Source: a virus
Length of the DNA stretch: 20,524 nt
Reading direction: 5' to 3' (one strand)
Virus record (IMG/VR): IMGVR_UViG_3300017952_004623
Coordinates: 1 to 20,524 of that record
Part shown: positions 1 to 19,077 of the stretch, piece by piece
How the letters are laid out: every line of letters begins with the position of its first letter
Position numbering within the stretch: position 1 is the first letter of the stretch
Program-made: the position numbers and the translations under genes
The notes under the pieces: generated by a model
Told to the model about the DNA's origin: nothing
What the model saw: the letters and a program-made list of their open reading frames with translations, nothing else
Database searches by the model: none

Positions 1-792
1 CATATAAGATAAAATTTTATCGGCATCTTTAAATGGATTTTTAACTCGAAGAAAAGCTGTATCTTCACTTAGAGCTGTAACTTCGTAATACGTGTTAGAA
101 TCCGAGTCCATTACGGACAATAAAGTAGTAATATATTTTTCCGATAAAGTTATTTCCCTAAAGGGCACAAATTCATTTGGTATATTAATAGTTTCGGTTT
201 TTTCAATACCTGATACAGAACTAACACTTTTAAAAACTGCAAACGTTGCTGGAATGCCATTTTCGTCAACAGAATTAATTTGATATTGAGCCACTAACGC
301 GCCTGATTCATTTACCTGGCTAAAGTCCAAATCATCCGTAGTATAAAAGGTAATTCCGCTATCAGATGATATTGATGTTCCAGCTAATATAACTGGGAGT
401 GCATTATTTTGTGGTTGATAATTTTGTGTATTTGGATTTAGTTCTGATGGGACTATAATTGTGAATTCAATATCGGTAGTAGCCGGAGCTGTACCAACAA
501 TATCAACACCGGCATTTCTCAAATGAGTAAGAATATTTTCAGGTTCTACTGCTAACTGTGGATCTAATTCTTTAAAAGAGTGATCTAAATAATAACTTAA
601 AGAATCTCCCACAGTAGCAACGAAGTCTAAAAACATGCCACCGACGGAAGCTTCCGAAAAATCTTGAATTTTATCTGGAAAATAAGTTCTTGCTGTATTT
701 AAAAGATTATTTCGAATAGATTCAAAATCTTTTGCTAGAAAAGTTTTATTTTGTTGTTTTTTAATGTCTTTTTTTATTTTATTGGTTGCCAT
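1..792 (-). CDS. gp6: Baseplate wedge protein gp6-like (baseplate J family), 3' end outside window
   Basis: The first 264 residues are visible and the frame runs open off the left edge, so the C-terminal part is missing. After a lysine-rich start, the region around residues 20-110 has the pattern of T4 gp6 and baseplate J proteins: DFESIRNNLL, then a YFPDKIQDFSEASVGGMF stretch, then VGDSLSYYLDHSFKE, then LRNAGVDIVGTAPA. In this family gp6 forms the inner ring of the baseplate wedge and ties wedges together around the hub. The start ATG overlaps the stop of the gp25 gene by one base (TAATG), which indicates translational coupling. The gp25-gp6 neighbourhood is typical of T4-like phages. The identification rests on motif recall and gene order rather than an alignment. 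Confidence 0.9.
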   Translation of the reverse strand, partial: MATNKIKKDIKKQQNKTFLAKDFESIRNNLLNTARTYFPDKIQDFSEASVGGMFLDFVATVGDSLSYYLDHSFKELDPQLAVEPENILTHLRNAGVDIVGTAPATTDIEFTIIVPSELNPNTQNYQPQNNALPVILAGTSISSDSGITFYTTDDLDFSQVNESGALVAQYQINSVDENGIPATFAVFKSVSSVSGIEKTETINIPNEFVPFREITLSEKYITTLLSVMDSDSNTYYEVTALSEDTAFLRVKNPFKDADKILSYM

Positions 793-1277
793 TAGCTAGT
801 CACCACTATCACTGCTTCTACATTTTGATCAAAAGCCCCAATTGAATTAACAGAATATATAATTTTAATTTTGTTTAAAACAGAATTACCATCTTCACTT
901 CGAATAATTTCTGTTTCCATCGTTTGCAAACTAATATAAGGCATATAGTTTGCTACAGCTGTAGAAATTCTTGTTAAAGCCTCAGAAACAACATCTTCTG
1001 ATGTTAAATCATATGCTAATTCTTTCAAATTAGCTCCAAAATTATTTAACATCAGTCTTTCGCCATGATTGGTGCTAATCAGATTCCTCAAATTATCTCT
1101 GATTTGATCCTTCAAATCAACAGACATTTTAAACATTGAACCTGCTGCTTGATCGAATGAAACCGGCGTTAAAATACCAATTGGTTCCTTTCTAAGGACT
1201 GCTTGTTGTTGTTTTTGAAAATCAGATTGCAGCTGACCGACTGATTTAAAATCATATATCTTTTTGGTTTGTGCCAT
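792..1277 (-). CDS. gp25: Baseplate wedge subunit gp25-like (GPW/gp25 family)
   Basis: This 161-residue protein carries the gp25 family signature at residues 72-87 (GERLMLNNFGANLKEL). An upstream helical region with DLKDQIRDNLRNLIST leads into it. The family is a conserved baseplate wedge component in contractile tails and related machines, where it helps link the wedge to the sheath. T4 gp25 is about 132 residues, so this copy has a longer N-terminus, roughly residues 1-45 and rich in Lys and Gln. ATG at 1277 is preceded by AAGG five bases upstream. The gene follows a 45-base gap, the widest in the window, and its stop overlaps the gp6 start by one base. Confidence 0.93.
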   Translation of the reverse strand: MAQTKKIYDFKSVGQLQSDFQKQQQAVLRKEPIGILTPVSFDQAAGSMFKMSVDLKDQIRDNLRNLISTNHGERLMLNNFGANLKELAYDLTSEDVVSEALTRISTAVANYMPYISLQTMETEIIRSEDGNSVLNKIKIIYSVNSIGAFDQNVEAVIVVTS

Positions 1278-1322: not shown

Positions 1323-2345
1323 CTATACAATGTTGCCGGATCCAACACCTTTACTTGAAACTGTATAAGCCGGAATTGGCGCGCCAGATTGGGTAATATG
1401 ACCAGTTACCGTTTCTCCGCCCGATACAGATATTTCCACTGATACAATAGCTTTCATGAAAAAATTTTGAATTGCTAAACATGCTTGCGATGACAAATTG
1501 AATATTAAGTTATCTGAATTAACACCTGTCTGAGATCCTAACTCTGCTGATGTTAAGTACGCATTTTCTATTGCTTTTTTTAAAACAATATAATCATTAA
1601 AGTTTTGTGCTTCTTTTTTTAACAAAGAATTTTCTGCTTGCACATCTAAACTTTGTCGCTTAGAAATTACTAAAGCCGATAGCTGTTGTGGAATTGGTCC
1701 TATTTCATCCTGTTTTTTTTTATCATAAAGAAAAGAAACTTTGCTAGCTGTTGATTTTCCCTTTCCCGGAGTACTAACAATGCCCACTGCAAACGTTGAA
1801 GATACTGTTGGCTGCCCTGGTGAAACTAAGTGATCAGTCTCTACCGTTAGTGATTCAACATAAATTTGAATCGCAATTGCCATTTCTTGCGCCAAATCCG
1901 AAATAATTTTTTTAGGATCGGCCCCAATTTCAGCCCCTCTTTCGTAAGAATTTTTAAAAGTTAAAAAAAAATTTGATTCTAATTTTTTAATATTTTTCAA
2001 TAAATTGGTAAGTTTTCCTGTACCAGTGCTAGATCCAACTGAGGCTGTTGTGCCTATAGGCGGATTTTTTGCGTCAATAATGCCCGAAACAGTGATACTT
2101 CCTTTCTTTTTTGTAATTTTTTGTGTAGAAGGTGAAAGAGAAATTTCTTGACCGGCTGGAATAATATCTACGGTGTTAACTTGAGCTTTTTCTGCATAAT
2201 TTTTAATAGCATTACTAATTTCTTTTGCCAATTCCATGGCAATTTTTTCTGGTTGTGCGCCTGTCAAAAAACCATTATTTTTAGCATTCATATATGCTAA
2301 TTGAACTTCTGATATGAATACTGGTAAAGCTGTAGTCAAAGACAC
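1323..2345 (-). CDS. Putative virion structural protein with three copies of an internal module
   Basis: I do not recognise a named family for this 340-residue protein. It contains three diverged copies of a module of about 60 residues, at roughly 8-66, 122-178 and 253-311. Each has a helical part with an Ala-Ile-rich heart (for example NAIKNYAEKAQV, IAIQIYVESLTV, LAIQNFFMKAIV). A short turn ending in Pro/Gly-Gly follows, then a Gly/Ser/Thr-rich beta-like tail. The linker at 70-110 is basic (ITKKKG). The start is GTG, supported by GGAG eight bases upstream and no better ATG nearby. It sits between the gp5-like gene and gp25, so a role as a baseplate or virion component is inferred from position and repeat architecture only. 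Confidence 0.72.
   Translation of the reverse strand: MSLTTALPVFISEVQLAYMNAKNNGFLTGAQPEKIAMELAKEISNAIKNYAEKAQVNTVDIIPAGQEISLSPSTQKITKKKGSITVSGIIDAKNPPIGTTASVGSSTGTGKLTNLLKNIKKLESNFFLTFKNSYERGAEIGADPKKIISDLAQEMAIAIQIYVESLTVETDHLVSPGQPTVSSTFAVGIVSTPGKGKSTASKVSFLYDKKKQDEIGPIPQQLSALVISKRQSLDVQAENSLLKKEAQNFNDYIVLKKAIENAYLTSAELGSQTGVNSDNLIFNLSSQACLAIQNFFMKAIVSVEISVSGGETVTGHITQSGAPIPAYTVSSKGVGSGNIV
1413..1589 (-). repeat. Internal protein repeat, copy 3
   Basis: Residues 253-311 of the same protein. This is the most diverged copy: IENAYLTSAELG, TGVNSDNLIFNLSSQ, LAIQNFFMKAIV, ending VSGGE. It is followed by the Gly/Ser-rich C-terminus of the protein. Confidence 0.6.
1812..1982 (-). repeat. Internal protein repeat, copy 2
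   Basis: Residues 122-178 of the same protein. Landmarks are FKNSYERGAEIGADPKKI, DLAQEMAIAIQIYVE and a closing VSPGQ. GADPKKI and the DLAQE stretch align directly with GAQPEKI and the ELAKE stretch of copy 1. Confidence 0.7.
2148..2324 (-). repeat. Internal protein repeat, copy 1
   Basis: Residues 8-66 of the 340-residue structural protein. Landmarks are AYMNAKNNG, GAQPEKIAMELAKEISNAI, NYAEKAQV and a closing IPAGQ. It matches copies 2 and 3 in residue spacing. The similarity is at protein level, not obvious at DNA level, so the duplication is old. Confidence 0.7.
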
Positions 2346-2348
2346 AAA

Positions 2349-4031
2349 TTATTCTCCAAAAATTCTTTCTGATTTGACAGTTTCAATGTCATTTTTTAAA
2401 TTTTGAATATTATTTTTTAAATTTGTTGCAGCATCTACAATTTGCTTCGAAGGCGCACCATACCCCGGGGTCGTATGCAATTGCAAAGATTGACAAAATT
2501 TATCCAGGGCGTCCATAGTGTTTTCCCACAGACTTTTTAATTCTCTGTATTTAATATACGGCTGTGCTTCTGTAACGTCTTCAGAAACTTTTATACCGCC
2601 GTTGCCCTTATCATCTTTTTGTCGCCCTAAAAATATTTGCCGGCCGCTAATTTGAATTGTACCATCCGCCTCGATATAAATGCATGCAAGATCTTCGTCT
2701 GGTTTTCCTTCCTTGACAATTCGAATAGTTCCATTTGTTTCAGAAAAATTTTCTGGAAGTTTATTTTTAACAGTTTCTAATGGGGTTTTTCTAGCTACAA
2801 TCCTAACGTGATCGGACTTAACAGCAATACATGGCGCAGAAACTGCACTATTAAATTGATTTTTATTATCAAACCCTTTTGCTTTGATAACATTTAATCC
2901 TAATTTTTCATCAACATTACTTCGTTCACTAATGTATATTCTACTGGCATCAACTAAAAAATCCGGATCACCTTCTACAGGATTTGTTTGCAAATTACCG
3001 ACAATACCTGGCGCCAATTTTGATTCGACGTCAATTTGATCTAAATCTTTAGTTTGTGTTTCACCTGGATTTTTATCAGTTTCAAAACCTAAAGAATTCT
3101 CTACAATGAATGGCTGAGTGCTATTCTTATTAGAATAGGCTTGTTTTAGATCACGATTTTTTGCCTTTAATTCTTGCAATGCTGAAAAAAATCTTCCGCG
3201 ACCAGCAACTATATCGATAGCACCAGACTTATTTTCTATTTCTTTTTGAGTCGCTATAGAATACGTATTTTGTTCACTAGGCCTATTAATAAAGTCCCAT
3301 GCTGCATCTGTTCCTAAGCTTATTGATGTATTATTAGATCCTTGTAAAACTAAATCTCCAGGTTTTTTAGTAAGTCTAGGAACAGGCTCAATTTTAAATT
3401 TTTCCGTAGCAAAAATCATTAAATTTTCTAATGCATTGTTGTTTCTTACTAATAAAGACGAGCCTTCTTTAAGAATATTTTCGTATTTAGAACCGGCTCC
3501 TTTGTTTAAATTAGGAAAATCTAATTGCCTAGCTGCCGGCGGGATTGGGGCAGCCGTAAGAGGTACGTCAATTCTTTTGCTATGGTTTCCAATTAGTCTT
3601 GTTGGAGAAGTAAAATTTGCATCTTCAAGCTCGATTGAACCTGGAATTCTACATATCCAATATGCACGCGTAGAAATTTCTTCATCTAACAAAAATTCTT
3701 TAAAAATCCATACCGCTTCACCGACTTTGACGGGAACAGAAAGATGCGACGAAAAAAATGGAAAACAAATATAATCTCCGCGGTCAGATTCGGAGTTGAA
3801 ATCAGTTATAATTCTGCAAACAATAGAATTTCTAGGAGCAATTTGATATAAATCTTTATCACTTTTTCTAACATTTGATGGAGTAAATTCTCTGAGTGAT
3901 GGATCACATAAGGTTTCAACAACAATGCCTTTATGAAAAATTCGACTCTTTGAAAGCTCATTAACTCTGGATAAAACTGAGTTATTAGGAGCTGCAGCGT
4001 TTTTTCCCTCACGCGCTTCTTTTGTAGTCAT
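2349..4031 (-). CDS. Putative baseplate hub/spike protein, gp5-like OB-fold structural protein
   Basis: The protein has 560 residues. Residues about 65-130 look like the beta-rich OB domain of T4-type hub proteins (SIVCRIITDF, GDYICFPFF, VKVGEAVWIF, AYWICRIPG). Residues about 390-480 hold short beta-strand patterns (SDHVRIVARK, GTIRIVKEG, ACIYIEADGTIQISGRQIFL) of the sort seen in gp5/VgrG-like spike shafts. The C-terminus (about 520-560) is a predicted coiled coil with an Asn/Asp/Lys heptad look. I see no lysozyme domain between these parts, unlike T4 gp5. ATG at 4031 has AAGGA about seven bases upstream. The neighbours gp25 and gp6 support a baseplate role. The exact gp5 assignment is an inference; it may instead be a different virion protein. 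Confidence 0.6.
   Translation of the reverse strand: MTTKEAREGKNAAAPNNSVLSRVNELSKSRIFHKGIVVETLCDPSLREFTPSNVRKSDKDLYQIAPRNSIVCRIITDFNSESDRGDYICFPFFSSHLSVPVKVGEAVWIFKEFLLDEEISTRAYWICRIPGSIELEDANFTSPTRLIGNHSKRIDVPLTAAPIPPAARQLDFPNLNKGAGSKYENILKEGSSLLVRNNNALENLMIFATEKFKIEPVPRLTKKPGDLVLQGSNNTSISLGTDAAWDFINRPSEQNTYSIATQKEIENKSGAIDIVAGRGRFFSALQELKAKNRDLKQAYSNKNSTQPFIVENSLGFETDKNPGETQTKDLDQIDVESKLAPGIVGNLQTNPVEGDPDFLVDASRIYISERSNVDEKLGLNVIKAKGFDNKNQFNSAVSAPCIAVKSDHVRIVARKTPLETVKNKLPENFSETNGTIRIVKEGKPDEDLACIYIEADGTIQISGRQIFLGRQKDDKGNGGIKVSEDVTEAQPYIKYRELKSLWENTMDALDKFCQSLQLHTTPGYGAPSKQIVDAATNLKNNIQNLKNDIETVKSERIFGE
2354..2357 (-). promoter_or_regulatory. Ribosome binding site supporting a GTG start
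   Basis: GGAG reads on the minus strand eight bases before GTG at 2345. It lies in the last codons of the upstream gp5-like gene. It is the main reason for accepting the GTG as start of the 340-residue protein. Confidence 0.7.
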
Positions 4032-4034
4032 AGT

Positions 4035-4412
4035 TTATCCTTCTATCTGCGCAAAAATATCTTCTGAATCGACCGTATTCTGTCGCTCAATTTCCTTGGT
4101 GATCAAACCGGCCAGGCTTAAAAGCTGATCATTGGCCTTAGTCATTCGCTCCAGATATTTGACCAGAGTTGGACCCAGAGTGGCGTGTTCGGGAGCTGTA
4201 GCTCCCAACTGCGAAAAGGCCTGAGTGAAAAGGGCGCTAGCACAGATTCGATCGTTCTTGGCATTGTTATAAATTTCCAGCCACAGAAAAAGTTTGCGCT
4301 GATCCAAGCCATCCACATTTGCCAGAATCTCTTCGAATTCGGTAATCTTTTTCTTGGCCTGCTTGTCCGACTCCATCAGTTTTTCAATTTTTTTTGCGTC
4401 GTTTGCTTTCAT
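4035..4412 (-). CDS. Small conserved-looking phage protein of unknown function
   Basis: This 125-residue protein appears entirely helical. It has a charged N-terminus (KKIEKLMESDKQAKKK), a central LFLWLEIYNNAKNDR stretch, then a segment around 73-105 (HATLGPTLVKYLERMTKAND) and an acidic C-terminus ending DIFAQIEG. I recognise no named domain. It lies seven bases downstream of the late sigma factor and three bases upstream of the gp5-like gene. Composition is near 50% GC, like the sigma gene and unlike the AT-rich structural genes after it. A role with the sigma factor, for example as a gp33-like co-activator, is possible from position alone but has no sequence support beyond a short acidic-hydrophobic tail. 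Confidence 0.8.
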   Translation of the reverse strand: MKANDAKKIEKLMESDKQAKKKITEFEEILANVDGLDQRKLFLWLEIYNNAKNDRICASALFTQAFSQLGATAPEHATLGPTLVKYLERMTKANDQLLSLAGLITKEIERQNTVDSEDIFAQIEG

Positions 4413-4419
4413 AGCCTCT

Positions 4420-5172
4420 TTACACCGCGTTTTCTTTCTCTCGATCTTCTACCGTCAGTTTGGCATAGATCTTTCGAATCTTGCCCATCGATTTTGACAG
4501 GCTCTTTTTGTCTAGACCTGACAGTTCAGCCAGATAAACGTAAATAGACTGTTTGTTAAAGAAGTCAAGCTCCTTGGCTGAATCAAAAAGGTTTTCCACG
4601 GCACTAATCGTCACCAGGTCTCTATCTTCTGTTAGAAAGTCTCGAATCTTTCTCACTCGCGCCAGATTCTCCTCTCGTCTTTCGCCGTTGATCATAAGTT
4701 CTTCGGTAGAAGGCAATTCATTGAATCGACTCAACTGGGCCATAATATTGGCATCGGCAGCATTATCAGCATCTCGAATATCATCTAGATAAACATGCTT
4801 GTAATACTTTTTTCGATGAGAATTGGTGGTATTGATGAGAAAGTTCTTTGCTACCACGTTAAAATAAGAAAAGGCCTTGGAGCCGCGATCTGGATTCCAC
4901 TTGTGAAGGCTCTTAAAGATGAAAAAGCAGCCGTCTTCTATTAATTCAGTAGTGGTAGCAAGAGGCGACCTGAAGCCATAAACATAAATCAGACTCTCCA
5001 CCAGTTTTTTTGTTGCCGGCAAAATTTCGTCGGCATAAACTTTTTCGCGCTCTTTTTCGCACGCTGAAGTCAGAAATTTAGTGATGCTGACCTCAGTCTC
5101 CTTATTGAAATACATGACCCTTTTCTGTCCGGGCCTTCTGCGAATTCTTTTTCTGCCTTTTTTGACTGCCAT
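4420..5172 (-). CDS. gp55: Late-transcription sigma factor, gp55-like
   Basis: The protein has 250 residues. Residues about 76-117 read as sigma-70 region 2: ELIEDGCFFIFKSLHKW, then NPDRGSKAFSYFNVVAKNF, as in the core-binding and -10 recognition helices. The N-terminus is very basic (KKGRKRIRRRPGQKR, 4-18). The later part (about 200-245) is helical and may be a degenerate region 4, ending in ENAV. In T4-type phages gp55 directs host RNA polymerase to late promoters together with the sliding clamp and gp33. This copy is longer than T4 gp55 (185 residues) and lacks an obvious hydrophobic clamp-binding C-terminus. GAGG about seven bases before ATG at 5172 supports the start, directly abutting the upstream stop. 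Confidence 0.85.
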   Translation of the reverse strand: MAVKKGRKRIRRRPGQKRVMYFNKETEVSITKFLTSACEKEREKVYADEILPATKKLVESLIYVYGFRSPLATTTELIEDGCFFIFKSLHKWNPDRGSKAFSYFNVVAKNFLINTTNSHRKKYYKHVYLDDIRDADNAADANIMAQLSRFNELPSTEELMINGERREENLARVRKIRDFLTEDRDLVTISAVENLFDSAKELDFFNKQSIYVYLAELSGLDKKSLSKSMGKIRKIYAKLTVEDREKENAV

Positions 5173-7928: not shown

Positions 7929-8792
7929 CTAAGTGCAGTGTTCCGTGTTGGCAAATTCGCAGAATCGACAGGAGGTCTTGTTTTTGAGGGCCATGCCGCT
8001 ACGCATTCCCTTCAGCATGCCTCGCACCATTTTGGTGGCTTTGGCCAGAGTTTTAGGTCCGGCTGAGACTTCAACCATTGCAACGGATTTGCCCGGCTTG
8101 CTCTCTCGCTTTAACAAAATGAAGCATGCCTTGATTTGATTGCTGGGCATGCCGGTCACTTGCATCCAAAAATGCTTATAGAGAACGATTTGTGCCGTGG
8201 TCAAAAAGTCTCGCTGCTTGTCTCGATTCCAACCTCGAGGGCCGGCCGTTTTCCAGTCAATCACTACGTGCTTGCCATTTGGTAGCTCAATAATGCAATC
8301 AATAAAGCCCTTGAAGAGACCAGTGTCGACTCCCTCAATTGACTCATAGAGACGGTGCTCGGCTGCATGGGGCTTCCAGCCCGGAAAGTTTTCTTCAAGA
8401 AACTGCGGCAGTTGTTCCAGGGAGTTTTTGGCGGATTGTAGCCAGCCTTTTAAAGGCACATGTCTGTACTTCCACTCCTGTTTTTCAGCCCGAAGAGTTT
8501 GCTTTTCTATGAATTCTGGTGTGTCAAAGCCACGATGTTGCCAGGCCTCTCTAATTTTTTGTTGTGCTGCTTCGACGTCCATTGGACCGCCTTTGAGAAA
8601 GCTTTCCACTGCGTCGTGCAGAATTGTGCCGTAGTCCAAATAAGGCGATGGTTCGTCAGCAGAAAGCCCATCGATGTATGCCAGTTTGTGTCGGTAGGGA
8701 CAGGCCTGCCAGGTGCTCACTTCAGAATAAGATACGTGAGGTTTTCCGTTTTTCAGGAGAGGAAGTTGCGAATTGCTTTGAGTGGGTTCCAT
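7929..8792 (-). CDS. PD-(D/E)XK exonuclease, RecB/Cas4-like
   Basis: The protein has 287 residues. The fold markers are all present: SYSEVSTWQACPYRHKLAY (21-39), GTILHDAVE with H59, E145, the GFIDCIIEL strand with D165, the VIDWKTA motif with D179 and K181, and QIVLY (201-205). Cys31 plus C275-x2-C278-x7-C286 form the four-cysteine pattern of the 4Fe-4S cluster in AddB/Cas4-type nucleases. It probably resects DNA ends in phage recombination or replication. Its start overlaps the end of the epimerase gene by 40 bases, the longest overlap here. No upstream in-frame ATG exists and downstream ones would remove the motif start, so ATG at 8792 stands. A 44-base gap follows it. Confidence 0.9.
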   Translation of the reverse strand: MEPTQSNSQLPLLKNGKPHVSYSEVSTWQACPYRHKLAYIDGLSADEPSPYLDYGTILHDAVESFLKGGPMDVEAAQQKIREAWQHRGFDTPEFIEKQTLRAEKQEWKYRHVPLKGWLQSAKNSLEQLPQFLEENFPGWKPHAAEHRLYESIEGVDTGLFKGFIDCIIELPNGKHVVIDWKTAGPRGWNRDKQRDFLTTAQIVLYKHFWMQVTGMPSNQIKACFILLKRESKPGKSVAMVEVSAGPKTLAKATKMVRGMLKGMRSGMALKNKTSCRFCEFANTEHCT

Positions 8793-9685
8793 TGATTCAT
8801 TGTATCTTTTTCGCCGCGATTTTGCAGAAACTCTTGGACGTACTGTTCTAGGTCAACCATGGGCTGCCAGCCAGTTTCGCGTTGCAACAAAGAATAATCA
8901 CAAAGGGTATCTTGTGCTTCGCCTGGGCGCTTTGGAATGTACTGTATTTCGCCGGCGAACATTTGTGCCAGTTCATTGATGGAATAATTTTTGCCAGTGC
9001 CGATATTGAAAATCCACGTGGTGTCATTTTGGCTCCAGTCTTTTTCTCCCAGAGCAACCAGACCTTTTACAATGTCTGAAACGTGTGTGAAGTCTCTTCT
9101 CTGTTCACCGTCTCCTGTAACTGTCAGAGGTTTACCCTCTTCAGTGAAATTTTCAAATATGCCAACGACCGTTGCATAATCGCCAAACGTCGGCTGTCTC
9201 TTTCCGTATACATTAAAAAATCTGGCCACAACTGTGCTCATACCGTAGACTTCATGATATAAAGTGCAGACTTGTTCGCCTGTATATTTTGCAAAAGCAT
9301 AGGGATTTAAGAAGGGACCAGCATAAGCTGAAGATGAGCCGGCATAGACTAATTTTGCTCCGCTTTGTCTGGCGAATTCGCATGTTGCTGCTGTGCCTTG
9401 AATATTAATAGAAAGATAGGCAAGTGGATCTTTGAATGAAGGTTGGATTCTGGCCAGCGCGCCTAGATGATAAACAACATCAAATTTTTGATTTGCATAT
9501 TTTCGATCCATCAAGTTTCTGACATCATCAATCCAATATTCAACGTCATTTCGCATATAATTGCGCGAAGAAGACTCTGAACAGAGATTATCAACGACTA
9601 TTACCTCATACTCTTTTACGTCTCTTAGATAATCAACGAGATGGCTTCCAACAAAACCTAGACCGCCAGTTACTAAAGCTTTCAC
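8753..9685 (-). CDS. NAD-dependent nucleotide-sugar epimerase/dehydratase (extended SDR)
   Basis: The protein has 310 residues. The NAD-binding glycine motif is at 7-13 (GGLGFVG), the active-site serines are around S118-S119 (AGSSSAYAG), and the YxxxK pair is Y129/K133 (NPYAFAK). Later landmarks are ARFFNVYGKRQ (154-164), GDGEQRRDFTHV (191-202) and NIGTGKNYSINEL (227-239). This is the pattern of UDP-glucose/UDP-glucuronate 4-epimerases and relatives. It lacks the usual look of a GDP-fucose synthase. The start is GTG, overlapping the Gmd stop as GTGA, so the two are translationally coupled. The last 22 residues (about 289-310) extend beyond the usual family end and overlap the nuclease start. 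Substrate is unknown; a sugar donor for the neighbouring transferases is likely. Confidence 0.9.
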   Translation of the reverse strand: MKALVTGGLGFVGSHLVDYLRDVKEYEVIVVDNLCSESSSRNYMRNDVEYWIDDVRNLMDRKYANQKFDVVYHLGALARIQPSFKDPLAYLSINIQGTAATCEFARQSGAKLVYAGSSSAYAGPFLNPYAFAKYTGEQVCTLYHEVYGMSTVVARFFNVYGKRQPTFGDYATVVGIFENFTEEGKPLTVTGDGEQRRDFTHVSDIVKGLVALGEKDWSQNDTTWIFNIGTGKNYSINELAQMFAGEIQYIPKRPGEAQDTLCDYSLLQRETGWQPMVDLEQYVQEFLQNRGEKDTMNQWNPLKAIRNFLS

Positions 9686-10653
9686 AGAAACTTACTCTCT
9701 TTTTCTAAATCAGATTCATACATCATTTTAGCTAATTTTTTTAAATCAGTTTTTGGATGCCATTTTAATACTTTTTTTGCTTTTGTTGCATCTCCCAAAA
9801 GCAAAGGAACTTCATGAGGACGCAAGAGTCTTGAATCAAATTCCGCATGATCTTCCACGTTTAATTCTGCTATTTCAAAAACCAAGTGCAAAAACTCTCT
9901 GACACTATAAGTTTTTCCGGTAGCAATTACGTAATCATCTGCTTTTGGTTGTTGCAACATTAGCCACATTGCTTCAACGTAATCTCCTGCAAAGCCCCAA
10001 TCTCTTTTTGCATCCAAATTGCCTAAGTAAAGTTTATCTTGCAATCCTAATTTAATTCTTGCTGCAGCCCTTGTAATTTTTCTGGTCACAAACGTTTCGC
10101 CGCGGCGAGGAGACTCATGATTGAATAAAATTCCACTAGAAACATGCATTCCATATGATTCTCGATAGTTTCTACAAAGGTGATGAGAAAAAACTTTTGC
10201 GCAAGCATAAGGACTAGCCGGCATCAGTCTAGTTTTTTCATTTTGAGGAACTTGAGGATTATCACCAAACATTTCTGATGAAGATGCTTGATAAATTCTG
10301 ATGTCTGGATTTACATGTCGAACGGCTTCAATAATTCTGAGAAATCCTATTCCTACGTTTTGTGCTGTCTCTTCTGGTACTTCAAACGAAACGCGAACAT
10401 GAGACTGTGCGGCTAGATTATAAATTTCATCAGGTTGAAAATCTTTTAGGATTCTGTAAAGAGCACCACCATCGAAGAGAGACCAGTATGCTAATGAAAA
10501 GTTAGGATGTTCCATGACATCATCGACCCTTTCGGTTGCAATAATACTTGTTCTTCTTTTTAATCCTAGAACTTTGTATCCTTTTGATATCAAGAGTTCA
10601 GCAAGATAAGAACCATCCTGCCCTGTCACACCGGTGATAATAGCTCTTTTCAT
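9682..10653 (-). CDS. gmd: GDP-mannose 4,6-dehydratase
   Basis: The protein has 323 residues, close to the family's usual 330-370. Motifs are diagnostic: GVTGQDGSYLAELL (8-21) for NADP binding, SSSEMFG (124-130), YxxxK at Y149/K153 (SPYACAK), and FNHESPRRGETFVTRKI (177-193). It converts GDP-mannose to GDP-4-keto-6-deoxymannose. That product is the common precursor of GDP-fucose, GDP-rhamnose, GDP-perosamine and others. With GT11 and GT10 proteins nearby, the fucose branch is the best guess. ATG at 10653 is preceded by a GAGAGG stretch. The gene is visibly AT-richer than the methyltransferase upstream, suggesting separate origin. Gmd is known from other large marine phages. Confidence 0.97.
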   Translation of the reverse strand: MKRAIITGVTGQDGSYLAELLISKGYKVLGLKRRTSIIATERVDDVMEHPNFSLAYWSLFDGGALYRILKDFQPDEIYNLAAQSHVRVSFEVPEETAQNVGIGFLRIIEAVRHVNPDIRIYQASSSEMFGDNPQVPQNEKTRLMPASPYACAKVFSHHLCRNYRESYGMHVSSGILFNHESPRRGETFVTRKITRAAARIKLGLQDKLYLGNLDAKRDWGFAGDYVEAMWLMLQQPKADDYVIATGKTYSVREFLHLVFEIAELNVEDHAEFDSRLLRPHEVPLLLGDATKAKKVLKWHPKTDLKKLAKMMYESDLEKESKFL

Positions 10654-10683
10654 TTAATGCCTCTCAAATTAGGATAATTGCAC

Positions 10684-11250
10684 TTATTTAAATGGTTTTA
10701 TGGCTTCCACATTTAGACTCATAAGTGTGCCATTTTCCTTGTCCATGTGCGGAAGGTAGGCCTGACTGTAGTCATCCACATGGGAGTGATCAGTCTCCTG
10801 CCAGTTGTATCTCTTTACAGACACGAATCCGGCGGCTTCCAAGGCGGTTTGCAAGGACATGAAATCGAAACAGACCTTGTGGTAGTCATACTCGTTCCGT
10901 TGTCCACCGTATAGTAACCCCATCAAAACTTTTAGCGGAGTTCCCTTACCATACTGCTCAAACACCTTCTCAATATCAGGCACGGATATTCTGATCAGTC
11001 CGCCAGGAGACAGTTTGCGGAACCATATTTCGATAACTTGCTTAATCTCCGTTCTACCGAAATGTTCCAGAACGTGGCACGCGTATATCTCACTAGCTGA
11101 TCCGTCTTCCACAGTTTCAAGCAACATGACGTCATCGACAACAACATTCGGGGACTGAGGTACGGCATCGATATTGATCCTCCCGTGGATGATCTTGGAA
11201 CCGCATCCCAGATGCAATCTTGTGCCAGGAAGAGTGTTTTCTTTACTCAT
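10684..11250 (-). CDS. Class I SAM-dependent methyltransferase
   Basis: The protein has 188 residues from ATG at 11250. SAM motif I is LHLGCGSKII (12-21), followed by INIDAV. Motif CHVLEHFG (58-65) and LSPGGLIRISVPD (80-92) are classic for small methyltransferases found in polysaccharide loci. A C-terminal HVDDYSQAYLPH stretch may bind substrate. An in-frame GTG at 11262 gives a longer version. ATG at 11250 is preferred because AAGGA lies four bases upstream. It overlaps the stop of the upstream sulfotransferase by eight bases. It probably methylates a sugar or glycan made by this cassette; the acceptor is unknown. GC is near 50%, higher than both neighbours. Confidence 0.88.
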   Translation of the reverse strand: MSKENTLPGTRLHLGCGSKIIHGRINIDAVPQSPNVVVDDVMLLETVEDGSASEIYACHVLEHFGRTEIKQVIEIWFRKLSPGGLIRISVPDIEKVFEQYGKGTPLKVLMGLLYGGQRNEYDYHKVCFDFMSLQTALEAAGFVSVKRYNWQETDHSHVDDYSQAYLPHMDKENGTLMSLNVEAIKPFK

Positions 11251-11995
11251 TGTTTCCTTCACTGATTATAGAACCATAGTAACGCTTCACAATGTCATGT
11301 TCAAGGACATCTTTCAGTGAATTAACAATTTTTTCGTAACTGCCTGGATCCCTTTTTTTCAAAAGCTGTGACCTGGTTAGCCAAACCTTTCCTGTGCTAT
11401 CCACACTCTGTGGGGTTTTAAAAGGCCCATCAAGACTGTCTGATCTCAAATTAAGGTAGTTGGCCAATGTGTAGTCAAGATTTTCTTTATTAACATCAAA
11501 AATGTCGGCAATTAGTGAGATAGGTTTTTTGTAAGCGGTATCTGATATAAGTTCCTCATACTTGATGAGTGCCTTTTTCCCTTCAAAACTTTCGTATAGC
11601 TCTAAGTTTTTCATGAATGTATGGACCCATTTTCTAAAATCACCGGCATCGGTTCCAGTACTGGTTATTCCATGTTTTTGTAGATGCGCATGATCATAAT
11701 CAGTTTGTGGTATTTTATGAGATATCACGGCATCCACTGGGTTTCTCAATATCAATATAATGCTTCTTGCATTCATGACATCTATTTCAACTGCAGCGTG
11801 TGCCTTTCTAGCAATTGGCGTATTCGATACATCGCGTAAGTACATTACACCGCTCCTGTCACGTATCGGTGTATCAATACTTTCATTGCCACGACATCCG
11901 AGTGTTGCCTGTTTTGTCATGAACTCAATCATATACCTAACAAGATGATTACCCGATCTTGGATAGGACAAAATCCAATTATTGACATTACTCAT
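11243..11995 (-). CDS. PAPS-dependent sulfotransferase-like protein (first copy)
   Basis: The protein has 250 residues from ATG at 11995. The 5'-phosphosulfate-binding loop is SYPRSGNHLVR (10-20). A candidate catalytic histidine is H66 in ARKAH (62-66), in the position of the family's K-x-H. The 3'-phosphate-binding segment is ILILRNPVDAVISH (80-93) with R84 and S92. These are the three hallmark sites of cytosolic/Golgi-type sulfotransferases. It would move sulfate from PAPS to a hydroxyl, probably on a sugar. A longer start at 12007 is possible. ATG at 11995 makes an ATGA overlap with the GT11 stop and has GGAG upstream. GC is near 35% on sampled lines, unlike the flanking methyltransferase and GT11 genes. 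Confidence 0.85.
   Translation of the reverse strand: MSNVNNWILSYPRSGNHLVRYMIEFMTKQATLGCRGNESIDTPIRDRSGVMYLRDVSNTPIARKAHAAVEIDVMNARSIILILRNPVDAVISHKIPQTDYDHAHLQKHGITSTGTDAGDFRKWVHTFMKNLELYESFEGKKALIKYEELISDTAYKKPISLIADIFDVNKENLDYTLANYLNLRSDSLDGPFKTPQSVDSTGKVWLTRSQLLKKRDPGSYEKIVNSLKDVLEHDIVKRYYGSIISEGNNE
11255..11259 (-). promoter_or_regulatory. Ribosome binding site choosing the methyltransferase ATG
   Basis: AAGGA reads on the minus strand four bases before ATG at 11250, within the last codons of the sulfotransferase gene. It would lie inside the coding part of a GTG start at 11262, so it favours the shorter protein. Confidence 0.7.
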
Positions 11996-12819
11996 AAAAT
12001 TCTCCATTGTTCGCAGTAGATATCTTGCCAGTCAGAAGGTCCCTTTGGCCCGAACCAATTTTTAGGGGCGATGACAACACCATTGTTTCTGGAAAGCCAG
12101 GCACCCCACCAACTAAAGCTGCTATTGGCGATGATATGATGATTACATCGAGACATCATTGCCATACTCAAACCATAGTCTACATCTGGATATACGATTT
12201 TATCGACTGGTATTACAGAAACTTCTTGCATGACTGATTCGGCAAGAGTTGGTTCATCTGAGAACACAGCGTAAATGTCACATTCCGGTATTTCGGACAC
12301 TGCTAAACTGTAATAGCTGGAGTCTAGGTTTGGGTGAGTCTCAGAAATTTTTTTGTAATCTCCTCTTCGAATGTGGATGGAGCAAACTGTCGAACCTGAA
12401 AATTCTGTCTGCCACATGTCATCGGCTGAATCTACTATATGATTCTTGAACCTAAACTCGTCCTCTAGCAGCTGATATCTCAGGTGTTTGAAGTATTTCT
12501 CAGACTGAAAATATCCCCTTATTTCAGTTCCGTCGGGAACGGTTTCGATTCTGCGATCGTATCCGAAACCTGACTCGTGGAACTCATATCTTATGCCTTC
12601 TATACCCCGTCCGACACCATTTTTGAGGACTCCAAGAGTTGTGGCACTCTTGAGCTCAAACGTCTCCAACAACTGGTTAACACTAGTACTTCGATAAGCG
12701 TCATGAGCAGATATTCCCAAGGACGTTCTGTGCCTTGCTGACAAGGCGTATGCGCAGGCATATTGAAACATTTGGTTTCCTAGACGGCCCATGCTGCCCA
12801 TTCTCGCAACGCTAATCAT
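11992..12819 (-). CDS. Alpha-1,2-fucosyltransferase-like glycosyltransferase, GT11
   Basis: The protein has 275 residues, standard for bacterial GT11. The motifs are clear: GRLGNQMFQYA (11-21), GYFQSEKYF (102-110), SIHIRRGDY (147-155, the GDP-fucose-binding HxRRGD) and ANSSFSWWGAWL (231-242). Family members transfer fucose, usually in alpha-1,2 linkage, from GDP-fucose to a galactose or similar residue. It lies between two sulfotransferases with four-base ATGA overlaps on both sides, so the three are translationally coupled and probably act on one glycan. The nearest source of donor is Gmd further downstream. GC is near 50%, higher than the sulfotransferase that follows. Confidence 0.96.
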   Translation of the reverse strand: MISVARMGSMGRLGNQMFQYACAYALSARHRTSLGISAHDAYRSTSVNQLLETFELKSATTLGVLKNGVGRGIEGIRYEFHESGFGYDRRIETVPDGTEIRGYFQSEKYFKHLRYQLLEDEFRFKNHIVDSADDMWQTEFSGSTVCSIHIRRGDYKKISETHPNLDSSYYSLAVSEIPECDIYAVFSDEPTLAESVMQEVSVIPVDKIVYPDVDYGLSMAMMSRCNHHIIANSSFSWWGAWLSRNNGVVIAPKNWFGPKGPSDWQDIYCEQWRIL

Positions 12820-13517
12820 CGAAGTAGTTCTCTCAATCTTTCGTTTACTTGCTTGCCATAGACTTCTTTGAACCTGTTCTTTGACTCTGCGTGTTTTTTT
12901 GGATTGTAGGCAGACAGCTTATCCATAGCGTGATGATCTGTAATTAGCGAATCAATCTTTTCCTTAGTTGCATCTCCAATTGCATAGATCAATCGTTCCT
13001 CAGGAATATCTAGTGAAAGAAACTCAAAGACTTTTTCAAACGTCTTTTTGGTATCACTAGTCATTTGCTCGTATCTAATTTCCAGACAATCGGCTATGTC
13101 GTCCCTGTTAAACCTCCACCGCTTTAGGTGAGACTCGTATTGTGATGTCACAGCATCAACTTGTTGATCAATGAGTTCGTTTGGCTCCCAATAGTCTTCA
13201 GCCAGTATTGTCTTGTCGTATCTTAGTAGTGAGTATACAGTATCAACGCCATCGCGGAAGAGGTATATCACTTTTTCAAGATTCGCTGTCGGTGGAACAT
13301 CTTTATTGTCGAGCCAGCGATCGTGTATATGAAGACCCCAACACTTTTTGGGATTTGGATAGTAGTAGGATGACACCATGGCCGGTGTTTCGGTAGCCAC
13401 TTCCATGATATACCTAAACCAATGAGATCCTGTACGAGGGAAAGATACTAGTCTTGGCAACGACCTATTGTTGTGGATGTCATACTCTCTCATCTTGTAG
13501 GTTATGTCGTATCTCAT
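12816..13517 (-). CDS. PAPS-dependent sulfotransferase-like protein (second copy)
   Basis: The protein has 233 residues. The 5'-phosphosulfate loop is SFPRTGSHWFR (25-35). GLHIHD (61-66) holds candidate catalytic histidines, and the 3'-phosphate segment is YLFRDGVDTVYSL (85-97) with R88 and S96. The C-terminal NPKKHAESKNRFKE stretch (205-218) resembles the family's closing GxxGxWK region only weakly. It shares only the functional motifs with the other sulfotransferase here, so the two are not a recent duplication. ATG at 13517 overlaps the DegT stop as ATGA with GGGAGA upstream. Its position next to GT11 suggests sulfation of a fucosylated acceptor, which is inference. Confidence 0.84.
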   Translation of the reverse strand: MRYDITYKMREYDIHNNRSLPRLVSFPRTGSHWFRYIMEVATETPAMVSSYYYPNPKKCWGLHIHDRWLDNKDVPPTANLEKVIYLFRDGVDTVYSLLRYDKTILAEDYWEPNELIDQQVDAVTSQYESHLKRWRFNRDDIADCLEIRYEQMTSDTKKTFEKVFEFLSLDIPEERLIYAIGDATKEKIDSLITDHHAMDKLSAYNPKKHAESKNRFKEVYGKQVNERLRELLR

Positions 13518-14179
13518 GATCTGTCTCTCCCAAATAGTTTCATGCTTCTTAGGTCGCGGTACTTATCACTCCCACCACAGTCATCGTTGTAGTCAGGTAA
13601 AGACAAGAACTTTTGGATACCATATGCAGCTTGTTCTGGAGGCATGTACATGTTCCAGCCTATTGTTTCTATGTCATCTTCATCGTATGGTTTCGTTATA
13701 TCACGACCTTCATATCGAGCTTTCTTGAACCACGCTACTGAATCCTTGTCATCCGTTAAAATCATACCACCCTTTCCAATCGAAAGTGTCTTTTTAATGT
13801 GGAATGATAAGCAATGAAAAGTACCTTGCTCGTACATTCCCTTCGTAAATCTAGTTGCACCGTCAATAATAGGATAGGGTTCTAACTTGTAAAAACCGGA
13901 CCAAGTCCTTTCGTCAAAAACAACTTCACAACCAGCATGAATAATCGTTTGTGGCACGGACACGTATGTTCTTGCAGGTATTGAAACAGGACCGATAGCT
14001 TTTAATCGCTTCAGACACAAGAACATTGCATTGGTACAACTGTCAACACTCACTGCATATTTGCTTCCTGCATAATCTGCCACAAGCATTTCGAACGCTG
14101 ATACAACATCCCACGGATCTTCAATCGAGATTCCTATTGATTCCAAGTGATCAACAACAGTATTGATATCTGTGTACAT
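13514..14179 (-). CDS. Short DegT/DnrJ/EryC1/StrS-family PLP protein
   Basis: The protein has 221 residues and keeps the large-domain motifs of sugar aminotransferases: YAVSVDSCTNAMFLCLK (41-57), PARTYVSVPQTIIHAGCEVVF (parts of 68-88), IIDGA (104-108, D106 for PLP), SFHIKKTLSIGKGGMILTDD with the Schiff-base lysine probably K130, and GWNMYMPPEQAAYGI (174-188). The family is normally 360-400 residues, so the C-terminal domain of about 150 residues is missing. The short form looks deliberate: its stop is coupled by ATGA to the next gene and no C-terminal remnant follows. AAGGAG before ATG is ideal. On a Gmd product such an enzyme could make GDP-perosamine, but a truncated protein may instead be a partner subunit or inactive. 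Confidence 0.85.
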   Translation of the reverse strand: MYTDINTVVDHLESIGISIEDPWDVVSAFEMLVADYAGSKYAVSVDSCTNAMFLCLKRLKAIGPVSIPARTYVSVPQTIIHAGCEVVFDERTWSGFYKLEPYPIIDGATRFTKGMYEQGTFHCLSFHIKKTLSIGKGGMILTDDKDSVAWFKKARYEGRDITKPYDEDDIETIGWNMYMPPEQAAYGIQKFLSLPDYNDDCGGSDKYRDLRSMKLFGRDRS

Positions 14180-14854
14180 TCAAATCTCCTTGTAGTATCC
14201 ACCATTTGTAAACTTCACCCCAAGGGTTGCAGAAGAGTTACATGTCTGAGATTCTAGAATTTCTTTCGGTATAACCCTAAAATCGAAGCTGACTCTTGTA
14301 AGTCCGGTCATATTTTTCTTATTTCCATGCATGCACTTATTTCCATTGAATATCGAGTATTGACCTGGGAACATTTCCATCGGCTCAAATTTGCCTATTC
14401 CTGGAATAGGTTCTATCCATGTTGCGGATGTGTCATACATCACTGTGAGAGGAATCTGAACGTTAATCTCTCCATTTGGGTGGCCGTGATCTTCGTCACT
14501 ATCAAAGTGCCATTTGTGGATGGCTTGTGAATTGGGCGTTTGCACCCTAAATGAAGGAAATTTTTGAATCAAAAGTTTAACGTCATCACCCAACTTATTG
14601 ACTATCTCTCCTCTCACAAATGAATCATACGCATCAATCATTTCTTTCCAAGGTTCACCTGGCCCGTTGAGATTGAGCTTCGAATAAAAAGCACGATGAA
14701 ATTCACTATCACTTTCGGACTTCCAAAGTACGTCTCCCTCGTGAACCATGTCTTTACAAAACAAGTGCAGAGTCTCAAGTGAAGAAACTCCAAATAACTG
14801 TGACACCATCTTCCTAAATTCGTATTGGCTTTCATCGAACCTAAAGATTTTCAT
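14180..14854 (-). CDS. Putative 2OG-Fe(II) oxygenase, StrG-like
   Basis: The protein has 224 residues from ATG at 14854. A double-stranded beta-helix iron site is visible: H116-x-D118 in HKWHFDSDEDHGHP, the strand GEINVQIPLT (128-137), and distal H176 in NKCMHGNKKN, with R187 in LTRVSFDFRV to hold 2-oxoglutarate. The arrangement resembles the StrG-type oxygenases found beside sugar-modifying genes, as I recall. Substrate is unknown; hydroxylation of a sugar or lipid in the same glycan is a guess. A TTG start at 14869 is less likely. ATG at 14854 overlaps the upstream stop as ATGA. Its neighbour is a DegT/StrS-family gene, a pairing reminiscent of aminoglycoside clusters. Confidence 0.75.
   Translation of the reverse strand: MKIFRFDESQYEFRKMVSQLFGVSSLETLHLFCKDMVHEGDVLWKSESDSEFHRAFYSKLNLNGPGEPWKEMIDAYDSFVRGEIVNKLGDDVKLLIQKFPSFRVQTPNSQAIHKWHFDSDEDHGHPNGEINVQIPLTVMYDTSATWIEPIPGIGKFEPMEMFPGQYSIFNGNKCMHGNKKNMTGLTRVSFDFRVIPKEILESQTCNSSATLGVKFTNGGYYKEI
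14186..14191 (-). promoter_or_regulatory. Strong ribosome binding site of the DegT-like gene
   Basis: AAGGAG reads on the minus strand six bases before ATG at 14179, inside the last codons of the oxygenase gene. Together with the next ATGA junction it argues that the short DegT-like gene is translated on purpose. Confidence 0.75.
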
Positions 14855-15450
14855 AGTTCGTATTCCCAAATCTTAGGCCTGTTTCTTTTAGACAGCATAT
14901 GTCCCTCCAGAACGGACACACTCAGGTTGCTCAGGTCCATGAATCCCTCAAGTGCTAGCACAGGTATATTAAGAAACCCGAGGCTGTTCATATATTCCTC
15001 AACTGGGAATTTGATTGTATTGAGATTATTTCTTGACAAAACGTATCCACCCTTGACAACGTTTTTTGCCGCCCACATCTGTGCCTTAATTTTAGCAAGT
15101 GGTGTGTGCGGATAGCTGCCCAGATCATTGTGAACAAATGATATGGGAACATCGTCACTTTCATCGAATAAAAGTATATTCTTAACTTTGACAGCTGGAT
15201 GATTTTTTGGGTTAGCTATGTCTATGCCTATGCACCTGTCAATGCCGAAATGGTCAATTAAAACCTGAAATGATACACAATTATTTGAACCGAGAACAAC
15301 AATATGCCCGCAGTCCGGTATGTCGTTTATCTTTTTTACAACGCTCTCATATAGATAATTTGCGTAGTATCTTTCATCGTATCCGTGCACTTCACCGTGA
15401 AGGTAATGTTGGTCAAACCAAAATTCCTTCGTGTATTTCTGCTCTTCCAT
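14851..15450 (-). CDS. Methyltransferase-like Rossmann protein, function uncertain
   Basis: The protein has 199 residues. Residues 50-78 (IVVLGSNNCVSF, then DRCIGIDIAN) have the spacing of a SAM motif I and the acidic end of strand beta-2. The usual GxGxG is degraded to GSNNC. FVHNDLG (105-111) and KNVVKGGYVLSRNN (129-142) match later strands. So this is either a divergent class I methyltransferase or an inactive relative. A conserved-looking N-terminal WFDQHYLHGEVHGYDERYY region (11-29) has no family I can name. It is coupled to GT10 by a TAATG overlap and to the oxygenase by ATGA. It probably belongs to the glycan cassette. Confidence 0.6.
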   Translation of the reverse strand: MEEQKYTKEFWFDQHYLHGEVHGYDERYYANYLYESVVKKINDIPDCGHIVVLGSNNCVSFQVLIDHFGIDRCIGIDIANPKNHPAVKVKNILLFDESDDVPISFVHNDLGSYPHTPLAKIKAQMWAAKNVVKGGYVLSRNNLNTIKFPVEEYMNSLGFLNIPVLALEGFMDLSNLSVSVLEGHMLSKRNRPKIWEYEL

Positions 15451-16307
15451 TACTTCTTAACCCCCTCAATAAATTCAGATATTGCTGCAGCAATGTGGTC
15501 ATCAACGCTGTAATGTCTCAAGACAGACTGGTAGTTTTCTTCCACAGCATTCAATTTTGAGATATACAGATCAGTTGAAATATCTGCAAGGATGTTAGTA
15601 AGCTCCTCAAGTGTATCAAACGTTAGTATTCCATCTGGATTGAAGCCAAAATCCGTATTGATTTTCTTCGTGCCCCAATAGATGGGAATCGTTCTGGTAG
15701 CAAAGCAGTCAAACGCCTTTTCAGTAACGTAGAAATCATCTATACTGTTTTCAATTGTTACTGAAAACATATAAGGATTCAGGGCGTCGGACTTTTTTTT
15801 GATGTAGGTTCCAGTCCCTGATCCGAACATGTCAACATCGAATCCTTTTGCGTTGATTGCTTTTGCGATTTTGTGCCTTAGTTTATGACCAGTTAGTAGC
15901 GTCTTTCTCGAGTATATCATGGAACACAGCTTGTGCTTTTCATGTTTGCTAAACACGGAATCAGAATCTAAGAATATCCCATCACATGGAATTCTGACGC
16001 ACTTGCTTGGGTACTCATTTAAAGCTTTCGAATCGAACGTCAAAACAAGATCAAACGCATCAATTAATCTTGACAATTTTTCATACGCCTTTGGAACATA
16101 TTCTCTAGGTTCCATCAGCCATGCTATCTTGAATCGAGACTCAATACTATTGACAAGGTCCAGACATTCGTCTGTGAAAATTGTTGCCCCATCAAAATTA
16201 GCTTGATTTCTTACGTATCTAATCCTTTTGGAAATTCTTCCTTTTTCAAGAGCATCATCGTAAGAGAGAGCGTGTGCAATATTTTTGTCGATGAAGTTAA
16301 CGATCAT
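15450..16307 (-). CDS. Fucosyltransferase-like glycosyltransferase, GT10
   Basis: The protein has 285 residues from ATG at 16307. The alpha-1,3-fucosyltransferase motif is plain at 181-196 (FSVTIENSIDDFYVTEK region), followed by AFDCFATRTIPIYWGTKKI (198-216) and FNPDGILTF (222-230). E186, N187, E196 and K197 match the family's GDP-fucose-binding residues. The N-terminal half (MIVNFIDKNI onward) is the variable acceptor domain. In-frame starts exist at 16352 and 16319. ATG at 16307 gives the ATGA junction used across the cassette but has only a weak ribosome site, so 16319 is a fair alternative. GC is low, near 38%. It probably adds fucose or another GDP-linked deoxysugar to the cassette's glycan. 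Confidence 0.87.
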   Translation of the reverse strand: MIVNFIDKNIAHALSYDDALEKGRISKRIRYVRNQANFDGATIFTDECLDLVNSIESRFKIAWLMEPREYVPKAYEKLSRLIDAFDLVLTFDSKALNEYPSKCVRIPCDGIFLDSDSVFSKHEKHKLCSMIYSRKTLLTGHKLRHKIAKAINAKGFDVDMFGSGTGTYIKKKSDALNPYMFSVTIENSIDDFYVTEKAFDCFATRTIPIYWGTKKINTDFGFNPDGILTFDTLEELTNILADISTDLYISKLNAVEENYQSVLRHYSVDDHIAAAISEFIEGVKK

Positions 16308-16939
16308 CTCTTGATCCATTTCTCCCAAATGAAAGGATACTTGAACATGCATGTGTGCGTATTCAATAAATTATTGCAAATCTCGTTATATTTGTTTATT
16401 GAATCGTCATCAATAGGGTGGAATTGCACAAAGATTGACTTGACGTTTTTTATCGCATTAGAAGTAAACAGAGAATCAAAAGCCTCGTATTCAGACCCCT
16501 CAATATTCATTTTGAGCAGATCAACACTTCGTGTGCCAATTACCTTAGCAGCATCAATAACAGAAATAACAGATGTATGATCGGACTGATTCTGAATATT
16601 ATCTCGGTCTATTCTTGTTGCTAGACCGTCGACAGATAGATGTGCTTGATAATCTCCCATTCCGACTGCGTTGTTTTTAATCGTGATTTTTCCATCGGGC
16701 AAATTTTTAAATCTATCTTCGATTTGTTTGACAAATTGCTGTGTTGGTTCGTAAATTTCAATGTCGCAATTGTATCGGGCAAATATCTTGTGTGCCCACT
16801 CGCCCGTGTATCCACCCAAATCAATTACCAGGCTGTTTTCATCTAATTCATGTTCAAGTGAAAGTGTCATATCTCCTTTGTCAGCAACCCAATGGAGCAC
16901 AGATCTGTCTCTGATTTCTTCACCTATTCTTTTACTCAT
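16304..16939 (-). CDS. FkbM-family SAM-dependent methyltransferase
   Basis: The protein has 211 residues from ATG at 16939. SAM motif I is LVIDLGGYTGEW (37-48), motif II IEIYEPTQQF (60-69), and the FkbM signature is VDLLKMNIEGSEYEAF (139-154). FkbM proteins usually O-methylate sugars or polyketides, and many lie in polysaccharide loci. The last segment (SIFVQFHPID, 172-181) is also typical. A GTG at 16951 would overlap the previous stop by eight bases. Neither start has a strong ribosome site, and the ATG is chosen as default. The end overlaps the GT10 start as ATGA. The acceptor is unknown. Confidence 0.9.
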   Translation of the reverse strand: MSKRIGEEIRDRSVLHWVADKGDMTLSLEHELDENSLVIDLGGYTGEWAHKIFARYNCDIEIYEPTQQFVKQIEDRFKNLPDGKITIKNNAVGMGDYQAHLSVDGLATRIDRDNIQNQSDHTSVISVIDAAKVIGTRSVDLLKMNIEGSEYEAFDSLFTSNAIKNVKSIFVQFHPIDDDSINKYNEICNNLLNTHTCMFKYPFIWEKWIKR

Positions 16940-16943
16940 TTGC

Positions 16944-19075: not shown

Positions 19076-19077
19076 GA

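Follow-up and report, generated by a model that had tools for sequence, protein, structure and literature searches.

The window analysed here, a stretch of 20,524 nucleotides of viral DNA (IMG/VR record IMGVR_UViG_3300017952_004623), carries near its left end a series of genes related to those of phage baseplates, with a gene for a 340-residue protein at its centre (Table 1). The open reading frame of this protein runs from a GTG start to a TAG stop, which is included in the coordinates, and lies on the minus strand; the plus-strand reading of the same interval contains 29 stops. Three bases separate the stop codon of the upstream gene, which codes for a spike-like protein, from the GTG. The product of the gene immediately downstream matches the GPW_gp25 profile (PF04965) with 37 bits against a curated cut-off of 27.2, and the gene beyond it, which is cut by the window end and has no Pfam match of its own, codes for a partial protein that aligns over 246 columns, at 44% identity (E 2e-68), with the N-terminal region of a protein from a relative (L006), of which residues 363–542 match Baseplate_J (PF04865, E 3.6e-8). 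With gp25-like and Baseplate_J/gp6-like genes downstream, the assignment of the 340-residue protein to a baseplate region in the preliminary description, made from the sequence alone, therefore holds.

Table 1. Features of the three-module gene and its neighbourhood, in window positions.
Feature	Position	Strand	Basis
gp6/Baseplate_J-like protein, N-terminal part, cut by window end	1..795	-	Open frame; comparison with a relative
gp25-like baseplate wedge protein, 161 aa	792..1277	-	PF04965, E 3e-9; phrog_43, E 3.8e-7
Three-module protein	1323..2345	-	ORF; three module matches by HMM
Module 3, residues 248–339	1329..1604	-	HMM alignment; third-module clade; AlphaFold2
Linker between modules 2 and 3, residues 200–247	1605..1748	-	Alignment; longer than in L025/L029
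Module 2, residues 116–199	1749..2000	-	HMM alignment; AlphaFold2
Module 1, residues 4–89	2079..2336	-	HMM alignment; AlphaFold2
Spike-like protein, 560 aa, upstream neighbour	2349..4031	-	Synteny in relatives; presumed spike from gene position

Several further features of the window are recorded here. The C-terminal Gly-Glu codons of the spike-like gene and its stop (GGA GAA TAA, 2349–2357) provide a ribosome-binding-like GGAGAA ahead of the next start, and a similar arrangement is present in relatives such as L052 and L058; the spike-like proteins of several loci without a module likewise end in FGE or YGE. A 125-residue protein (4035–4412, minus strand) with no Pfam or PHROG match is encoded between the spike-like gene and a late sigma factor-like gene (4420–5172, minus strand; phrog_234, E 1.5e-4), and similar proteins occupy the same place in several relatives. 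Late sigma factor-like genes were also seen by eye upstream of the baseplate genes in several relatives. A long series of putative sugar-related genes, named by eye only, occupies 8753–20499 on the minus strand and includes nucleotide-sugar epimerase/dehydratase-like, several glycosyltransferase-like, fucosyltransferase-like, sulfotransferase-like, adenylylsulfate-kinase-like, methyltransferase-like and aminotransferase-like genes.

The 340-residue protein contains a threefold internal repeat, as had been proposed. Local alignment of its segments A and B gave a z-score of 11.6 (none of 10,000 shuffles as high; 26 of 76 columns identical), with corresponding values of 7.7 for A and C (1 of 10,000; 25 of 99) and 8.2 for B and C (0 of 10,000; 18 of 60). 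The same pairs had z-scores of 10.0, 5.9 and 6.9 in an earlier run (BLOSUM45, 2,000 shuffles), with 0, 1 and 0 shuffles as high. We also built a hidden Markov model from 22 single-module relatives, all encoded between the same two genes (spike-like and gp25) and with no window sequence among them, and this finds three matches in the window protein, at residues 4–88, 121–197 and 253–338, with i-E values of 4e-9, 3.6e-13 and 7.5e-8 (at Z=40,000), the choice of relatives being not wholly independent since they were first picked by profiles seeded with the window modules. Against the same model, none of 200 shuffled versions of the window protein exceeded 5.9 bits. The boundaries first given for the repeats (8–66, 122–178 and 253–311) cover their helical part; the Gly/Ser-rich stretch that was described as a tail following each module belongs to the module itself and contains predicted beta strands, so that the full module is about 85 rather than about 60 residues long.

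AlphaFold2 models of the window protein (pLDDT 79, pTM 0.75) and of the three-module protein of L029 (pLDDT 80, pTM 0.76), both made from ten-row alignments, agree with this division. Each module in both models is predicted to form two long helices followed by strands, in identical order: in the window protein, helices 3–26 and 32–52 with strands 55–62, 67–70, 98–100 and 104–113 for module 1; helices 115–138 and 144–164 with strands 167–174, 179–181, 187–190 and 194–204 for module 2; and helices 251–270 and 277–297 with strands 300–307, 312–316, 323–328 and 331–339 for module 3. Unrelated folds for the three segments are thus not seen in the predictions. Residues 75–92 and 217–248 of the window model have pLDDT values under 50, and the pTM of 0.75–0.76 is taken to mean that the modules pack against each other in a defined manner. 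A Foldseek search of the PDB with the window model returned nothing at E<=0.1. With VIA, the window model gave the six-helix barrel 8qad over the helices of modules 1 and 2 (Z 6.7, rmsd 5.7, 90 residues, model residues 4–166), otherwise rhodopsins as top rows over the helices of all three modules, and PsbO over residues 54–340 (Z 4.3–4.5) with strands of all three; the L029 model gave OmpW/OmpA/Ail-type barrels over about 50–264 (Z 3.8–4.8), again with strands of all three. VIA Z-scores under 8, as all of these are, may reflect a common arrangement only, and kinship with rhodopsins, the six-helix barrel, PsbO or OmpA/OmpW was set aside; what they have in common is that helices lie together and strands lie together, which we read as modules packed, in the models, around one centre. 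Among the BFVD models, the unnamed 207-residue protein A0A8S5RUZ0 is the best Foldseek match (E 3.0e-9 with the L029 model and 6.2e-9 with the window model; TM by target 0.76 and 0.75), and the 186-residue A0A6J7WU27 from an uncultured Caudovirales phage is a further one (E 2.8e-3 and 7.4e-2); both resemble the module protein in this comparison of models, and both are uncharacterised.

Searches for a known counterpart found no such family. The whole window protein matches no PHROG family at E<=0.1, has no Pfam match near a cut-off, and finds nothing better than E 0.02 among PDB sequences. Over all searches with the modules, the best E-values were 0.011 (PHROG), 0.011 (Pfam) and 0.022 (PDB), each to another family and below the curated cut-off wherever one exists, and the names attached to weak Pfam and PHROG matches (PrmA, ParD, SpoIIE, a wedge subunit and others), at E 0.011 or worse, are regarded as chance. 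Nothing was found in viral contigs and phages with the window protein, or in viral contigs with the three modules; tblastn with single-, two- and three-module relatives gave no match at E<=1 in 50,697 phage records, and the module profile had no match in the whole records of S-PM2, P-SSM2, HTVC008M, phiM12 and Mel-JY01. Within the sensitivity of tblastn, then, the search brought up no cultured phage that carries the module. The literature covered, with many subscription papers outside its scope, describes neither the module nor the series of one, one plus two, and three modules reported below; the remark in the preliminary description that no account of this module was known stands as far as PHROG, Pfam, PDB and this literature extend.

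Relatives were reached through the neighbouring genes, with gp25 and the spike-like protein as baits, and not through the module protein. The gp25 bait led to ten viral contigs, and in L007, L010, L012 and L013 a protein of 81–84 residues with a single module is encoded between the spike-like gene and gp25, with longer and more diverged module forms at the same place in L005, L006, L009, L011 and L014. One bait, L002, was a false lead in which 27 residues matched and nothing around them was related. Further baits (a gp25 profile and spike-like profiles) and a bacterial-genome scan, which gave one locus, brought the total to at least 173 loci with a spike-like gene. Judged by the final 150 residues of the spike-like protein, 121 of these, the window included, are distinct; distinct loci in this sense include close relatives and are not independent events.

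Three arrangements of the module were found at this position. Among the matches listed, 66 of the 121 distinct loci have one single-module gene (10 of the 66 on weak matches, with E over 1e-8), 11 have a split form in which a single-module gene is followed by a two-module gene (1+2), and 8, counting the window, have a fused three-module gene; the module HMM detects no module at the remaining 36. Module totals are therefore one, one plus two, or three, and never two, no distinct locus among the matches listed (0 of 121, of which 85 are module-bearing) having a total of two. The window protein belongs to the family, as defined by an HMM match between the spike-like gene and gp25, with three matches. 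Both genes of the seven split loci found first were read and each has its own start codon, and the four later ones were also read. Two of the bait searches returned the best 80 of 145 and the best 80 of 124 candidates and were baited with module-bearing phages, so the proportions of the classes are not population frequencies. The distance from the spike-like gene to gp25 gives a measure that is independent of the HMM: it is 218–393 bp in 64 of the 66 one-module loci, 857–941 bp in all 11 split loci, and 817–1259 bp in the seven fused loci besides the window, where it is 1,071 bp. These gap lengths agree with the module counts without use of the profile.

Ten large related records (137–293 kb, possibly incomplete genomes) were searched in their entirety. 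The 284-kb record has three modules (1+2) and the 257-, 281-, 176- and 137-kb records one each, in every case at the locus only; the 204-kb record has one weak match, and the other four have no module match at E<=0.01. The family is one of uncultured tailed viruses of bacteria. One three-module locus (L139, the same as L193) lies on a contig of 108,871 bases binned as a Halobacteriovorax sp. MAG, which is either a hint of a predatory bacterial host or a binning error. At another (L186:1688–2899), the three-module protein has 404 residues, and W-x-V-D-W-like motifs recur in it between the first and second modules.

A number of loci lie near the borders of these classes. A gene of a size suited to two modules (gap 527–649 bp) is present at seven loci of the zero class (of 36) and at two of the one-module class (of 66), and at most one module was found in any of these genes; they could encode a very diverged two-module protein. 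Two sets were considered as two-module forms and rejected, the 160–187-residue proteins of L083, L086, L087 and L094 (hhalign probability 4.7%, 17 columns) and those of L068, L166 and L184, which have one module at most (probability 61%, 45 columns). A different protein of 160–187 residues occupies the module position in L083, L084, L086, L087, L094 and L116, and the spike-like proteins of these six end in GKTK and not RIFGE. The 360-residue proteins of L181 (2822–3904) and L188 (4648–5727) have one weak match at best (i-E 0.05 and 38) and were kept in the zero class, where they could be diverged multi-module forms. A 67-residue protein straddles the threshold, being counted as one module in L147 and L155 and as none in L153 and L154, and the protein at the L096 locus looks unrelated to the module. 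In 13 of the 36 zero-class loci, gp25 follows the spike-like gene within 80 bp, and the module is therefore dispensable in some phages with a relative of the spike-like protein.

To trace the arrangements we built trees of the modules and of the spike-like proteins. The module tree has 79 modules and 93 columns, with 22 chosen single-module loci of the 66 represented; 28 of its 76 forks are open. It unites all 19 third modules, from eight fused loci (the window included) and 11 split ones, in one clade (support 92/88; 90% of 200 bootstrap trees), so that for the third position at least the split form can be matched to the fused one. The clade of third modules was also recovered (80/88; 74% of bootstrap trees) in a previous tree of 56 modules, for which an initial 60 rows had been reduced by four single modules that were diverged or duplicates. 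Most third modules share a loop, G-x-x-V-x-G-Y/F-M ... P-x-P-A/S. First and second modules separate only partly, and modules 1 and 2 of the window are long-branched and not clearly placed with other first and second modules.

The spike-like tree, made by a quick method from 73 proteins, leaves out the 36 zero loci, ten weak one-module loci, and L012 and L025, of which the spike sequences are short fragments. On this tree neither the fused loci (p-AU 1e-14) nor the three-module loci of both kinds together (p-AU 7e-57) make up a single clade, and its starred branches force at least three changes for the fused or three-module state and at least four for the one-module state. The spike-like protein of the window groups with those of split loci, the starred set comprising six split loci and the window, and is nearest to that of L058 (52% identity over 510 columns). 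A split locus, L132, sits at short distances among the one-module loci L129, L130 and L135. Because the third modules form one clade and the fused loci, on the spike-like tree, do not, the arrangements would have changed repeatedly with the total staying at one or three. By these trees, the lineage appears to have switched more than once, both between one module and three and between the split form and the fused, possibly by way of recombination of the block of genes with respect to the spike-like gene.

The 560-residue neighbour is presumably the spike, judging by its gene position, its size and a weak match in Mel-JY01. It has no Pfam, PHROG or PDB profile match, and an hhalign comparison did not align it with the gp5 proteins of T4 and phiM12 (probability 0.4%). 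The weak match is of its C-terminal part to an unannotated 503-residue Mel-JY01 protein encoded upstream of gp25 in that phage (probability 69%, 120 columns). Gp5_OB (PF06714) was found in none of the ten large records, a weak negative as no control genome passed the cut-off either. PAAR_motif (PF05488) is absent among the Pfam matches of the window protein to E 1 and was detected in none of the ten related records (137–293 kb) at E<=0.1, with detection in three of 14 control genomes. The order of genes in T4, where gp5.4, the PAAR tip, lies between gp5 and gp6, is compatible with a module gene in the position of a PAAR-like tip gene. Spike and hub are reported to be trimers in A-1(L) (PMC10966104), and in T4 the trimeric gp5 spike is described as carrying the PAAR protein gp5.4 as its cap (PMC4576200, PMC10715212).

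Totals of one or three modules, and never two, are most simply accounted for by a trimer on a three-fold axis, and we have good confidence that the working unit of the module protein is a trimer. With more moderate confidence, we propose that the window protein is a fused pseudo-trimer and that the single-module form is a homotrimer on the three-fold axis of the hub of the baseplate, the spike being its likeliest site. Most relatives would make, from one gene, a single-module protein of about 85 residues that assembles as a homotrimer on the hub axis; in the split relatives the same site would be filled by a single-module and a two-module protein, and in the window by one three-module chain. 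The three positions would have turned non-equivalent, the third modules having their own clade and, mostly, the shared loop. Among the placements first suggested for a three-module chain, the pseudo-threefold positions have thus gained most from the totals observed, with the trimer itself an inference from them, and a fibre-like attachment has gained nothing. Repeated positions in a six-fold wedge or ring, with fused chains filling the ring in fewer copies, would suit a gene whose downstream neighbour, gp25, is a wedge component. Such a ring would tolerate two-module fusions as three copies of two; these fused pairs are expected and were seen at none of the 85 module-bearing loci among the matches listed, and we regard a ring position as very unlikely.

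If the modules were instead strung like beads, each binding a partner (a fibre anchor, the tape measure or the cell surface) with no symmetric assembly, the two low-pLDDT stretches of the window model and the long linker of L186 with its repeated motifs would be readily understood. Totals of two should then occur freely, and there are none among the listed loci; the pTM of the whole chains and the single clade of third modules across split and fused forms also speak against such a chain, which we think quite unlikely. A (pseudo-)trimeric assembly factor or chaperone, which would aid trimerisation of the spike-like protein or cover its end before assembly and would not be a lasting part of the virion, would yield the same series of one, one plus two, and three if the module protein binds a trimer, and the adjoining gene, three bases away, would suit it. 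In the absence of the cap, moreover, the T4 gp5 and VgrG spikes are reported to associate in pairs through their tips (PMC4576200, PMC10715212). The gene lies inside a series of structural baseplate genes, however, and no profile search indicated a chaperone family, and we consider this explanation unlikely.

Returning to a trimer or pseudo-trimer on the hub axis, the module protein presumably binds the spike-like protein encoded just upstream. By analogy with other contractile baseplates, hub and spike would be the three-fold elements to expect at this gene position, and this, the position of gp5.4 in T4 and the absence of PAAR matches from the ten records make the C-terminal end of the spike the preferred place. 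That the module protein takes the place of PAAR there, capping the spike or forming its tip, is plausible at somewhat less than an even chance. More tentatively, and on balance doubtfully, this could be a family of non-PAAR spike caps in uncultured contractile phages, in which duplication and fusion have repeatedly made a homotrimeric cap asymmetric by way of first one, next one plus two and finally three modules, the loop of the third module giving the apex a unique face for piercing or docking.

That a homo-oligomer becomes a fused pseudo-oligomer is a well-known course in protein evolution. To our knowledge, a single family rarely shows the intermediate stages side by side at one gene position. 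The present family has three coexisting stages (one, one plus two, and three), which interconvert on the tree and appear to skip two, and its module counts allow the symmetry of an unseen virion site to be proposed from sequence alone. For the three arrangements, a trimer would predict three copies per virion, a pair of proteins in a 1:1 ratio, or a single copy, and if the site is the end of the spike, the module protein would give a contractile injection machine a PAAR-free tip of a new type.

Pseudo-trimeric chains on trimeric spikes and the fusion of subunits are known already; the module family and the coexistence of its stages are new. The closest parallels are the PAAR tips (T4 gp5.4 and the T6SS PAAR proteins), in which one chain with a pseudo-trimeric base is reported to cap a trimeric spike, and gp5.4 is encoded between gp5 and gp6 in T4. 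The module protein differs from these in having no PAAR match, in its predicted two helices and strands, and in that the copies of its repeat are still separate genes in relatives. The spikes of P2, phi92 and R2 pyocin are reported to end in a closed tip to which three chains contribute (PMC10715212). Their tip is formed by the spike chain itself, whereas here one or more separate genes would make it. In fused-subunit ring proteins, such as the sliding clamps and T4 gp27 as a pseudo-hexamer, one chain holds repeats that are separate subunits elsewhere. What they would share with the module family is the making of a pseudo-symmetric chain from a homo-oligomer by gene duplication and fusion; they belong to other machines, whereas the module family keeps the stages of one, one plus two, and three at a single locus.
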